The position numbers and the translations under genes are program-made. The notes below the pieces were generated by a model, which saw only the letters and a list, made by a program, of their open reading frames with translations, was not told the DNA's origin and did not search any database. From NCBI GenBank assembly GCA_009379815.1, contig WHSY01000001.1, positions 63,323 to 127,322 of the forward strand: a stretch of 64,000 nt of DNA, read 5' to 3'. Positions 8,107 through 28,305 of this stretch are shown here, in pieces. The stretch's first letter is position 1, and each line of letters begins with the position of its first letter. The DNA is from Pseudonocardiaceae bacterium (GTDB lineage Bacteria > Actinomycetota > Actinomycetes > Mycobacteriales > Pseudonocardiaceae).

Positions 8107-8124
8107 AAAACGATCGTTTGGTAG
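8107..8124 (+). promoter_or_regulatory. operator-like site A (AACGnnCGTTTGGTAG family)
   Basis: The sequence AAAACGATCGTTTGGTAG contains a perfect 12-base palindrome, AAACGATCGTTT. It lies 37 bases before ATG 8161. Related sites occur near 12.75, 16.98, 21.40 and 28.29 kb, suggesting one TetR-family repressor controls these promoters. Confidence 0.55.
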
Positions 8125-8160
8125 AGAGCGTGGCGCAGCGGGCGCAGGCGGAGGAGTGCC

Positions 8161-9549
8161 ATGGCGAAGTACGACGTGGTCGTGATCGGGGCCGGTGCGG
8201 CGGGTCTGACCGCGGGCGCATTGCTGGCCAAGGAGGGCCGCCGCGTGCTGGTCACCGACCGCAGCCCCTGGCTCGGTGGCCGCGCCATGGCGGTCCCCGA
8301 CGAGGGGTTCAAGGTCAACATCGGCGGGCACCTCATCGAGGACCCCGGCTCGGGCCTGACGAAGGTCTTCGAGCACGTCGGCAAGGAACTCGTGCACGGC
8401 GAGGTCTCGCACGAGATGCCGATCTGGGACAACGAGAAGGGTTGGGGGTCGGTCCGGGACCGGTATTCCGGCAACAAGGCAGAGCTGAAGAAGGTCATCA
8501 AGGCGCTGCTCGACACGCCCTACGAGGAGCTCGACCGCTGGGACGACCGTTGCCTGCGGGACTGGATCCACCAGTACACCGACGACCAGGGCGTCGTCGA
8601 TCTGTTCGAGTTCATCTCGGTGCTCGAGTGCATGACCGACAACTGGTACGACCACTCGGCCAGCGACAACCTCTACGTCCGCAAGATGCACTTCGCCGAA
8701 CGCGGCACCGCCGCGTACTCCTGCTGGCCCGGCCAGGGCTGGGACGGCTTGTGGGACGACCTCGCCGACGCGCTGCGCCAGCACGGCGGCGAGCTGCGGC
8801 TCGGCACCACGGTGGAACGGGTGGTGATCGAGAACGGCGAGGTCAAGGGCGTGGCGATCCCGCGCGAGCCGCGGGTGCTGCCGAACGAGATCTTCGAGGA
8901 AGAGGTCATCGAGACGTCCTGCGTGATCTCCACGCTACCGGTGTGGAACGTGCTCAACGTGGTCGACGAGCACGAGCTGCCCGAGTGGTACACCGCGCAG
9001 ATCCGTTTCCTGGCCCAGGATCGCTTCCGCATCTCGTGGCTCGGCCTCTACCTCGCCACCGAGGAACCGGTCACCCACTATGACCCGCGCGAGCTCGCCA
9101 CCTGGCTCGAGACGCCGAGCACCAACTGCACGGGATTCATGTTCGACCAGTCGGCCATGGACCCGTCGTGCTCGCCGCCGGGCACCCACCTGCACGTGAT
9201 GGGCGCGATCATCCCCGGTTCCAAGGGGCGGGACCGGCGCTACCTGCGGGAGACCTTCGAGGCCTTCGAACGCGATGTCGCCACCATGTGGCCGGGTTTC
9301 GAGAAGCCGATCTGGCGCCGGCGCCATCTGGTGTTCGAACCCTCGTTCGGTGTCATCCAGATGCCCGGCCTGGTGGGTACCTACCGGCCGCACTGGCGAG
9401 CACCCAACGTCGACGGCCTCTACTTCGCCTCCGAGACCTTCCGCAGCCGCGGCATCGGCACCGACAGGGCGGCGCGAGCCGCGCTGACCGTCGTCGAGGA
9501 CTACCTCGGCCGTCGGCTGGCGACCTTCGGTGACGGGTGGCGCTACTGA
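8161..9549 (+). CDS. FAD-dependent oxidoreductase, phytoene desaturase-like superfamily
   Basis: 462-residue flavoprotein. The N-terminal VVVIGAGAAGLTAG (residues about 6-19) is the FAD Rossmann motif of the NAD(P)/FAD and amine oxidase/phytoene dehydrogenase superfamily, followed by a GGRAM segment. The C-terminal YFASETFRSRGIGTDRAARAA is the second FAD contact. The exact reaction cannot be read from sequence. GGAGGAG precedes ATG 8161. It is the first gene of a tightly packed operon whose next start overlaps its stop (TGATG). Confidence 0.85.
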   Translation: MAKYDVVVIGAGAAGLTAGALLAKEGRRVLVTDRSPWLGGRAMAVPDEGFKVNIGGHLIEDPGSGLTKVFEHVGKELVHGEVSHEMPIWDNEKGWGSVRDRYSGNKAELKKVIKALLDTPYEELDRWDDRCLRDWIHQYTDDQGVVDLFEFISVLECMTDNWYDHSASDNLYVRKMHFAERGTAAYSCWPGQGWDGLWDDLADALRQHGGELRLGTTVERVVIENGEVKGVAIPREPRVLPNEIFEEEVIETSCVISTLPVWNVLNVVDEHELPEWYTAQIRFLAQDRFRISWLGLYLATEEPVTHYDPRELATWLETPSTNCTGFMFDQSAMDPSCSPPGTHLHVMGAIIPGSKGRDRRYLRETFEAFERDVATMWPGFEKPIWRRRHLVFEPSFGVIQMPGLVGTYRPHWRAPNVDGLYFASETFRSRGIGTDRAARAALTVVEDYLGRRLATFGDGWRY

Positions 9550-26896: not shown

Positions 26897-28255
26897 TCAA
26901 CCCTGTTGCCGCAGTGCCTCCGCGGCAGCGGTGAGCAGCGCTTCGCGGTCGGCGATCTTCACCCGGGTGCGTCCGGCGGCGACGCCCAGTGCTTCCTCGG
27001 CAGCACTGATGGCCTCCCAGCCGGCCCAGGTGACGACGCAGGCCCCGCGCTGCTCGAGCAGTGAGGGCAACGCGTCCGGGTCGCGGTGCGGGGCACGGGG
27101 CAGCTCGTCGAGGTCGGAGAGCAGCGTGGCCACCGTCTCCTTGGCGTCGCCCTTGTTGGTGCCGATCACTCCGGTGGGGCCGCGCTTGATCCAGCCCACC
27201 ACGTACTCGCCGGGCGCGGTCGCACCGTCACGGTGCACCCTGCCCTGCTGGTGCGGGATCACCCCGGCCCGCTCGTCGAACGGGACGCCGGACAGCGGCA
27301 GGCCGCGGTAGCCCACCGACCGGAGCAGCAGCTGGGCGGGGATCGTCGTCTGCTCGCCGGTGCCGGTCACCCCGCCGTTGCCGTCGAGCTCGTTGCGCTC
27401 GAGCTCGACGCCTTCGACCCGGCCGTTGCCGAGAACCCCGACGGGGGAGTGCAGGAAGCGCACATGCAACCGCCGGGGCCGGCCCTCCGGGGTGCGTTGC
27501 GACCACTCGCGCAGCGCCTCGAGGTTGCGTCGCACCGTCTTGTCGGACTCGACGACCTGCTCGCCGGCCGCGTCGAGGACGAGCTCTGCGGGGTCGACCA
27601 CGACGTCGGCGTTGGCCAGCTCGCCCAGCTCGCGCAGCTCCTTGGTGGTGAACTTGGCCTGCGCGGGGCCGCGTCGGCCGACCATGTGGATGTCGGTGAT
27701 GGTGCTGGCGTCGAGCACGTCCAGCACATGGTCGGGCATGTCCGTCACGCGAAGCTCCTGCGCGGTCTTGGCCAGGATCCGGGCGACGTCGACGGCGACG
27801 TTGCCCACCCCCACCACGACCGCCTCCCGGGCGTCGAGGGTGAACTTGTCGACCTCGGAATCGGGGTGGCCGCAGTACCAGGCGACGAACTCGGTCGCCG
27901 AGAAGCTGCCGTGCAGGTCCTCACCGGGGATGTTCAGCCTGCGGTCCACCGCCGAGCCGGTGGCATAGACCACGGCGTCGTAGTGCTCCCGCAGGTCGTC
28001 GACGGTCAGGCGGTCACCGAGCTCCACCCCGCCGAGGAACCGCACCTCGGGCCGCTCGAGGACCTTGCGCAGCGTCAGCTCCAGCGACTTCATCTTCAGG
28101 TGATCCGGCGCGACGCCGTAGCGCAGCAACCCGTAGGGGCACAGCAGCCGGTCCAGCACGTCCACCGTCACGCCGCCGTGCTTGCTCAGCTCGTCGGCGG
28201 CGTACAGCCCGGAAGGTCCGGATCCGATCACGGCCACCCGCACCGGGTCGGTCAC
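26897..28255 (-). CDS. fprA: FprA-type ferredoxin/adrenodoxin NADP+ reductase
   Basis: 452 residues. The FAD motif AVIGSGPSGLYAA is near the start, LLRYGVAPDH is the adrenodoxin-reductase signature, and VGVGNVAVDVARIL is the NADP-binding motif; GWIKRGPTGVIGTNK near residue 360 is characteristic. It passes electrons from NADPH to a ferredoxin that serves P450s. GTG 28255 has an AGGAGG behind it. It stands alone on the minus strand, 27 bases beyond P450 (2), with half-site G upstream, which ties it to the neighbouring regulon. Confidence 0.94.
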   Translation of the reverse strand: MTDPVRVAVIGSGPSGLYAADELSKHGGVTVDVLDRLLCPYGLLRYGVAPDHLKMKSLELTLRKVLERPEVRFLGGVELGDRLTVDDLREHYDAVVYATGSAVDRRLNIPGEDLHGSFSATEFVAWYCGHPDSEVDKFTLDAREAVVVGVGNVAVDVARILAKTAQELRVTDMPDHVLDVLDASTITDIHMVGRRGPAQAKFTTKELRELGELANADVVVDPAELVLDAAGEQVVESDKTVRRNLEALREWSQRTPEGRPRRLHVRFLHSPVGVLGNGRVEGVELERNELDGNGGVTGTGEQTTIPAQLLLRSVGYRGLPLSGVPFDERAGVIPHQQGRVHRDGATAPGEYVVGWIKRGPTGVIGTNKGDAKETVATLLSDLDELPRAPHRDPDALPSLLEQRGACVVTWAGWEAISAAEEALGVAAGRTRVKIADREALLTAAAEALRQQG

Positions 28256-28290
28256 CGCCGCCTCACCTCCTATCCTGCCGCGGCCTCTCG

Positions 28291-28305
28291 GTACGCATGG
28301 TAGTC
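28291..28305 (-). promoter_or_regulatory. operator-like half-site G before fprA
   Basis: GTACGCATGGTAGTC on the plus strand matches site E in 11 of 12 positions over CGyATGGTAGTC. The other half is not conserved. It lies 36 bases upstream of the fprA start. Confidence 0.35.

Follow-up and report, generated by a model that had tools for sequence, protein, structure and literature searches.

The stretch of Pseudonocardiaceae DNA analyzed here (64 kb, referred to below as the window) carries a gene for a TetR-family regulator flanked by operons of oxidative and acyl-coenzyme A (acyl-CoA) enzymes, and four promoters of this block share one type of operator. The regulator gene, tetR (17066..17776, + strand, with the start at 17057 or 17066), encodes a 236-aa protein with the Pfam domains TetR_N and TetR_C_24. 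Upstream of it, operon A begins with a flavin adenine dinucleotide (FAD)-dependent oxidoreductase gene (8161..9549, +; Pfam Amino_oxidase and NAD_binding_8) and continues through genes for a luciferase-like monooxygenase (LLM) oxidoreductase, a SnoaL-like protein, an F420-type LLM oxidoreductase and a glyoxalase-like protein (9549..12577, +), identified from gene calls, Pfam and NCBIfam. Operon B opens with a cytochrome P450 gene, P450a (12787..13998, +; Pfam p450), whose product has CypX (3nc3, E 1.6e-89) as its nearest solved structure; gene calls and family matches place a small SnoaL_4-like protein, an acyl-CoA ligase and a mycofactocin-coupled short-chain dehydrogenase/reductase (SDR) behind it (14025..16887, +). 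Downstream of tetR, two acyl-CoA carboxylase genes diverge, accA for the biotin carboxylase/carrier (alpha) subunit (19583..21376, −; Pfam, NCBIfam) and accB for the carboxyltransferase (beta) subunit (21515..23077, +; Pfam Carboxyl_trans), the latter followed by genes for an enoyl-CoA hydratase, a SnoaL-like protein, an LLM oxidoreductase and a second P450 (23074..26870, +; Pfam, gene calls). As judged from sequence, the TetR encoded at 17.07 kb is very probably the autoregulated repressor of one catabolic regulon that includes the four operator-bearing promoters.

Three of the four operators are exact copies of the pattern AACGnnCGTWTGGTRG. They lie at 8109..8124 on the + strand (operator A, AACGATCGTTTGGTAG), ending 36 bp before the ATG of the FAD-oxidoreductase gene, at 12748..12763 on the − strand (operator B, AACGGACGTTTGGTGG), and at 21399..21414 on the + strand between the divergent carboxylase genes (operator E, AACGACCGTATGGTAG). 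In a search of the window allowing up to three mismatches, all remaining matches had three. Across the genome (5.44 Mb in 733 contigs, 97% complete), the 16-mer has no exact copy besides A, B and E; one place (C477) departs from it by one mismatch and 33 places by two. An earlier note, made from the DNA letters alone, had read a common motif at A, B and E, and these searches bear it out. The note had also described a palindrome before the tetR-like gene: operator C in the tetR promoter (16978..16995, no strand assigned) is GTCTACC-AAAC-GGTAGAC, whose two 7-bp arms repeat each other perfectly in inverted orientation and are separated by a non-palindromic 4-bp spacer. Read on the minus strand, C has CGTTTGGTAG in common with A, B and E. 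The shorter pattern CGTWTGGTRG has six genomic copies, compared with 12 of the reversed control pattern, and A, B, C and E, all in a stretch of 13.3 kb, make up four of the six; the nominal binomial p of about 5e-10 for four of six copies in such a stretch applies to a pattern drawn from these same sites. By sequence comparison, the operator type has the consensus CKACCGTWTGGTRG, with arms CTACC and GGTAG.

The earlier note had proposed a scan with a weight matrix built from A, B and E; the scan carried out used a matrix trained on the tetR promoters of other genomes. The genome collection contains 31 relatives of the TetR with flanking DNA, at 46-82% identity, from Pseudonocardia, Actinomycetospora, Prauserella, Rhodococcus and metagenome-assembled genomes labelled Nocardiopsis, Streptosporangiales and Caulobacteraceae. 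Thirty of these, mostly from the first two genera, have 66-82% identity. Training used the best site in each relative's tetR promoter, which was obtained for 27 of the 31 loci (20 distinct sequences), the other four having no site within three mismatches. The window was excluded, so A, B and E are absent from the training set; C is not fully independent of the matrix, because the 14-mer used to choose training sites was written after viewing site C and the ortholog tetR promoters. In the window, the four best places, each in front of genes that the earlier note had named, are C (32.1), E (27.4), A (21.9) and B (16.9), and the next that overlaps none of them scores 9.6. When 20 sequences of 64 kb were simulated (first-order Markov), one reached 17.2, the maximum; A, C and E therefore stand out alone, and B needs the evidence of conservation. 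A profile of 65 sites from other genomes, built from sequence only, ranked E, C, A and B first to fourth in the whole genome, with E-values of 0.017, 0.029, 0.039 and 0.42 (150 of 1117 first-look candidates were scored). The matrix served to choose these sites; 71 were distinct at the threshold used, and six did not enter the profile, namely two near-duplicates, a palindromic P450a site and three whose register was shifted.

Conservation of the sites in relatives, on whose absence the earlier note would have given up its proposal, was assessed at a site threshold of 14 in 30 orthologous loci, which total 548 kb and, according to a simple gene caller, are 9.7% noncoding. The locus with 46% TetR identity (L091) was excluded from the count, and L092-L102 (25-40% identity) lay outside the site scan. 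The sites recur before the same genes. All 18 loci with the divergent accA/accB pair have a site in the intergenic region, as do all 14 orthologous P450a promoters. For FAD-oxidoreductase orthologs of at least 75% identity, a site of at least 14 stands directly upstream in 10 of 13 cases, or 14 of 18 if homologues of about 40% identity are counted; in L061 and L067 a site precedes the first same-direction gene upstream of the ortholog, and L070 has a site-like sequence below threshold. Orthologous tetR promoters have a site of at least 14 in 26 of 30 loci, training sites included. Outside the tetR promoters, all 76 sites scoring at least 14 are noncoding, where 20 bp at gene ends were tolerated; the gene caller is weak on the Rhodococcus locus L087, and without its three sites the count is 73 of 73. 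In this locus (Rhodococcus sp. 14-2483-1-2), four sites, at 6166, 8214, 9950 and 14832, lie in 9 kb around the TetR ortholog.

In addition, the P450a sites track the presence of the TetR. A P450a match with an E-value of 1e-100 or lower is present in 40 of 200 genomes from the window's family, its own genome being one of them. Flanking DNA was examined for the best 30 of the 41 matches, and the best 29 from outside the own genome entered the comparison; their genomes were all among the 34, out of 40 P450a-bearing ones, that were screened for the TetR. A site scoring above 15 within 320 bp upstream of P450a was found in five of the six genomes that encode a TetR ortholog (71-74% identity) and in none of 23 without one, where the best score in the same 320 bp was 3.5 (one-sided Fisher p about 5e-5); two of the 23 (G095 and G117) have a TetR paralog of 37-38% identity. 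Close P450a orthologs (66-76% identity; L131-L134 and others) lack such an operator in genomes lacking the TetR, and are presumably under another regulator there.

Several observations weigh against a single TetR regulon. The score of B, taken alone, is within the chance range of a 64-kb sequence, and the genome-profile E-values are modest (0.017-0.039 for E, C and A, 0.42 for B, and 0.48, 1 and 2.5 for places on C88, C70 and C144 described below), with only 150 of 1117 first-look candidates scored. The orthologous loci are mutually related (L063 and L064 look almost the same), which means that their counts do not represent independent events, and four of the 30 tetR promoters (L075, L076, L086 and L088) have no site of 14 or more. 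The five genomes with both site and TetR all stand under one genus label. In two of them the best P450a site is 177-179 bp from the gene and matches in sequence those on the FAD-oxidoreductase side, and the remaining TetR-bearing genome (G053) has no site before P450a, the two genes being on different contigs. Lastly, two other homologues of the C88 ligase, in L077 and L086 (59-61% identity), lack a strong site immediately before them. Operator B is nevertheless secured by the site found in all 14 orthologous P450a promoters. Taken together, the foreign matrix and profile, the conservation and the lack of a site before P450a where the TetR is absent indicate, by sequence, that the regulon proposed in the earlier note is real for the FAD-oxidoreductase/LLM, P450-ligase-SDR and carboxylase alpha and beta units and for tetR itself, and that it is probably run by the 17.07-kb TetR.

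The operators lie on or beside presumed promoter elements. An extended -10-like element of the P450 promoter, TGCTAGTCT, is located at 12737..12745 (+), 2 bp before the arm of operator B, as the earlier note had observed, and it is conserved: among 13 distinct orthologous P450a promoters, the -10-like element starts with TGCTA in 12 and CGCTA in one, and the operator arm follows at a distance of 2 to about 11 bp. Since this element just precedes the arm, operator B would cover the presumed start of the P450 transcript. In the tetR promoter, the GGTAG arm of C merges into a -10-like TAGACT, and in the carboxylase promoter the right arm of E merges into a -10-like TAGTCT.

Within the noncoding DNA of the orthologous loci, CTACC...GGTAG pairs with at most one mismatch occur 27 times at a gap of 4 bp, 43 times at 8 and 27 times at 12, and none of the remaining gaps up to 17 has more than eight; in the coding DNA, which is ten times as long, every gap has 1-13 pairs. 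Counted as distinct sequences, the pairs number 10, 19 and 16 at gaps of 4, 8 and 12, and at most five elsewhere. The gap also varies with the promoter. Among 28 tetR promoters, 14 have a gap of 4, nine a gap of 8 (Actinomycetospora, with L069 and L076) and five no pair, while 11 of 14 P450a promoters have a gap of 8 and 17 of 18 carboxylase promoters a gap of 12. The window sites are weaker examples of this geometry: C has an exact gap of 4, E has gaps of 4 and 8 with one mismatch each, and A and B have two mismatches. A single rigid dimer would hardly reach across gaps as different as 4, 8 and 12 bp, so that overlapping dimers would be the simplest reading; the spacing suggests overlapping sites, a possible parallel to dimer-of-dimers binders such as DarR. 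This stepping of the arm spacing between promoters is the oddest feature of the regulon.

The TetR itself is a PF17932-type regulator close to PfmR, AibR, KstR2 and DarR. Its domains match TetR_N (PF00440, E 7e-15) and TetR_C_24 (PF17932, E 3.1e-31), and its AlphaFold2 model (predicted local distance difference test score 87.8) has the all-helical TetR fold with a C-terminal ligand and dimerization domain, matched in Foldseek by 3dcf, 3vpr, 5k7h and 4w97, and also by DarR. In sequence, the closest proteins of known structure are 3dcf (Thermobifida), AibR (5k7f), PfmR (3vpr) and KstR2 (4w97); the last three were matched to the TetR by sequence and fold, and the PF17932 match is that of the 17.07-kb TetR itself. 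In orthologs of at least 66% identity, the helix-turn-helix is nearly identical, with Lys55-Gly56 nearly invariant.

PfmR of Thermus thermophilus (TTHB023, 3VPR) is the third-best solved relative (E 5.6e-24, template modelling (TM) score 0.69-0.70 on the query, about 27% identity). Its operator, TACCGACCGNTNGGTN (PMC7022988), differs from the Actinomycetospora tetR site TACCGACCGTATGGTG at a single fixed position and resembles E. PfmR is a repressor with a site in the promoter of its own gene and a regulon of phenylacetate and fatty-acid genes, which, in the part of the paper available, is described without the carboxylase, P450 or mycofactocin SDR targets seen here (PMC7022988). The operator reported for T. 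thermophilus PaaR (TTHA0973), CNAACGNNCGTTNG (PMC6651687), fits the core CTAACGGCCGTTTG of the Pseudonocardia P450a sites, and that of Burkholderia cenocepacia PaaR, ACCGACCGGTCGGTT, likewise has ACC units 4 bp apart (PMC9493321). The effector of PaaR is described as phenylacetyl-CoA. The likeness to PaaR was drawn from the operators, and those here carry additional CTACC/GGTAG arms. The ortholog site consensus CGACCGTTTGGTAG and the P450a sites CTAACGGCCGTTTGG are similar, but not identical, to the published PfmR and PaaR consensuses. No phenylacetate (paa) genes are among the annotated targets in the window, so the TetR was not filed as either PaaR or PfmR.

The second-best solved relative is AibR of Myxococcus xanthus (5K7F/5K7H/5K7Z; E 8.2e-26, TM-score 0.71 on the query), whose fold-matched structure contains isovaleryl-CoA. 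BkaR of mycobacteria (Rv2506/MSMEG_4718; 6yj2, rank 34 in the fold search) was considered for its carboxylase neighborhood, being an autoregulated TetR whose targets include an operon that carries acyl-CoA carboxylase genes (PMC3920632), as would be the case for the TetR here. This identity was rejected on the operator core described for BkaR, GTTAnTnnnnAnTAAC, which is unlike the CTACC/GGTAG type. DarR of mycobacteria and Rhodococcus (8SUK/8SVA/8SVD) binds ATACT-N4-AGTAT as two dimers on overlapping palindromes, Lys44-Gly45 reading the T-X-C half-site and Tyr48-Tyr49 touching DNA, and c-di-AMP or cAMP strengthens its binding (PMC10636190). Its operator, as published, has the TAC-N6-GTA geometry of site C, and its K-G-x-x-Y-Y matches K55-G56 and Y59-Y60 of the TetR by residue spacing only. 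DarR differs, however, in half-site sequence, in regulon and in the effect of c-di-AMP/cAMP. KstR2 of Mycobacterium tuberculosis (4W97/4W1U) is a related TetR (E 2.8e-21). Its operator, AnCAAGnACTTGnT, differs from those here. Cholesterol-derived CoA compounds are its reported ligands (PMC13176608). From sequence comparison, the regulator would thus be a member of the PfmR/PaaR/AibR-like TetR proteins with a regulon that appears to be new, and in the open-licence papers searched, as far as their accessible text goes, no description of this regulon or pathway was found.

A second PF17932-type TetR gene of the window (38606-39208, −) has TCTAACTAACGATCG upstream, at 39282-39301 with a matrix score of 9.6; it adjoins an acyl-CoA ligase gene, near a molybdenum hydroxylase/enoyl-CoA hydratase cluster. 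This gene perhaps governs a paralogous regulon with a related, TAAC-type operator.

Both repression and an acyl-CoA effector can be inferred for the 17.07-kb TetR, the former because the operators occupy a blocking position on or just downstream of -10-like elements, and the latter because relatives bind acyl-CoA thioesters and the targets include an acyl-CoA ligase. A TetR dimer would read the TAC/GTA half-sites via Lys55-Gly56 of its recognition helix, probably joined by a second, overlapping dimer where the arms are further apart. The bound protein would cover the -10 element or transcription start and block RNA polymerase until released by an acyl-CoA of the pathway that one of the ligases produces. 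Release would turn on the P450s, SDR, acyl-CoA ligase, carboxylase and hydratase, and a hydrophobic substrate would be degraded; the enzymes themselves suggest oxidation, CoA activation, carboxylation and hydration of such a compound.

An activator, or a co-repressor that represses in its acyl-CoA-bound form, is an unlikely alternative to a ligand-released repressor, with some precedent: AibR, a structural relative, represses when ligand-bound and controls a biosynthetic operon (PMC6018408), and FasR, a weak NCBIfam match here, is named an activator by NCBIfam. The placement of the operators relative to the -10-like elements is that of a repressor, however, and published accounts present PfmR, PaaR and MbdR as repressors or negative regulators. 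It is very unlikely that the motif is read by another regulator, be it the second PF17932-type TetR or a paralog, and that the 17.07-kb TetR is merely nearby. TetR paralogs are indeed numerous in the genome (39 matches with E-values of at most 0.001), and the gene for the other TetR_C_24 protein, 21 kb distant, has a TCTAACTAACGATCG element upstream, but this element scores poorly, the best site of the window stands in the promoter of the 17.07-kb gene itself, orthologous tetR promoters mostly have a site (26 of 30, training sites included), and the P450a sites follow this TetR. That the matches are chance or plain promoter sequence has next to no probability: the motif partly overlaps -10-like TAGNNT elements, but the CTACC/GGTAG arms extend past a -10 element, four of six genomic 10-mer copies fall within 13.3 kb, and all 76 non-tetR ortholog sites are noncoding.

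Beyond the window, repression by the TetR may extend to two unlinked acyl-CoA ligase genes. At C144:29552 (L207:3552-3571; profile rank 7, E 2.5, matrix 14.1), a site lies 17 bp upstream of a ligase gene whose product is 68% identical to the L074 ligase, and the L074 promoter and site are nearly the same (CAAACGATTGGTAGGTGA following a -10-like element); this gene is a probable member by sequence. A possible member is the ligase gene 105 bp downstream of the site at C88:30059 (L208:6062-6081; profile rank 5, E 0.48, matrix 21.7), with a product 68% identical to the L088 ligase, which stands between a site and tetR.

Other candidate places were set aside. Alongside A, B, C and E, the five-site motif of the earlier note had included a site G before fprA (28287..28306, +), and this part did not hold, as its matrix score is 0.0. 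Among the best 30 of 49 fprA matches, the four closest orthologs (76-85% identity) have no upstream site (best score 2.5), and the other 25 homologues (48-55% identity) have one upstream score of 16.1 and the rest at most 9.1; fprA is also not among the genes recognised in the orthologous loci. Because its own site scores 0.0 and its closest orthologs have none, fprA was removed from the regulon. Two places on C70, C70:261 (23.3) and C70:590 (18.6), fall within a long minus-strand open reading frame of about 398 amino acids and were treated as chance, as was the C70 place at rank 6 of the genome profile search (E 1). The same applies to the remaining CGTWTGGTRG copies, C33:67108 and C133:8620, within called genes, the latter also just before the start of an overlapping gene call. 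The C477 pattern places score below 9, and in 60 kb of contig C111 scanned ahead of the window no site scores above 10.9. The palindrome CTACCNNNNGGTAG, searched for with one mismatch, gave no useful signal, with 149 places on each strand against 155 for the control.

Between tetR and the carboxylase gene lies a MetE-like gene with a cobalamin-independent methionine synthase domain (18249-19424), preceded by about 470 bp without a called gene; no operator upstream of it is among the top 20 matrix places of the window.

Returning to the operators, a more specific proposal is tentative and less likely than not: one TetR may read CTACC/GGTAG arms at 4, 8 and 12 bp, with the gap largely fixed by the promoter (4 for tetR in most Pseudonocardia, 8 for P450, 12 for carboxylase) and set by overlapping dimers on -10 elements partly built from the arms. 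If true, this would amount to a stepped, modular operator code in which each promoter has its own repression strength or release order. More generally, one operator type with promoter-specific arm spacing offers a case for studying the stacking of TetR dimers on DNA, and the 71 distinct sites at the threshold used add a well-sampled operator set to the PfmR/PaaR/AibR-like TetR proteins. For the organism, five transcription units, with two P450s, a mycofactocin-coupled SDR, LLM enzymes, an acyl-CoA carboxylase and a ligase, would be tied to one regulator, and the acyl-CoA that releases it would provide a direct handle on the substrate of the pathway.

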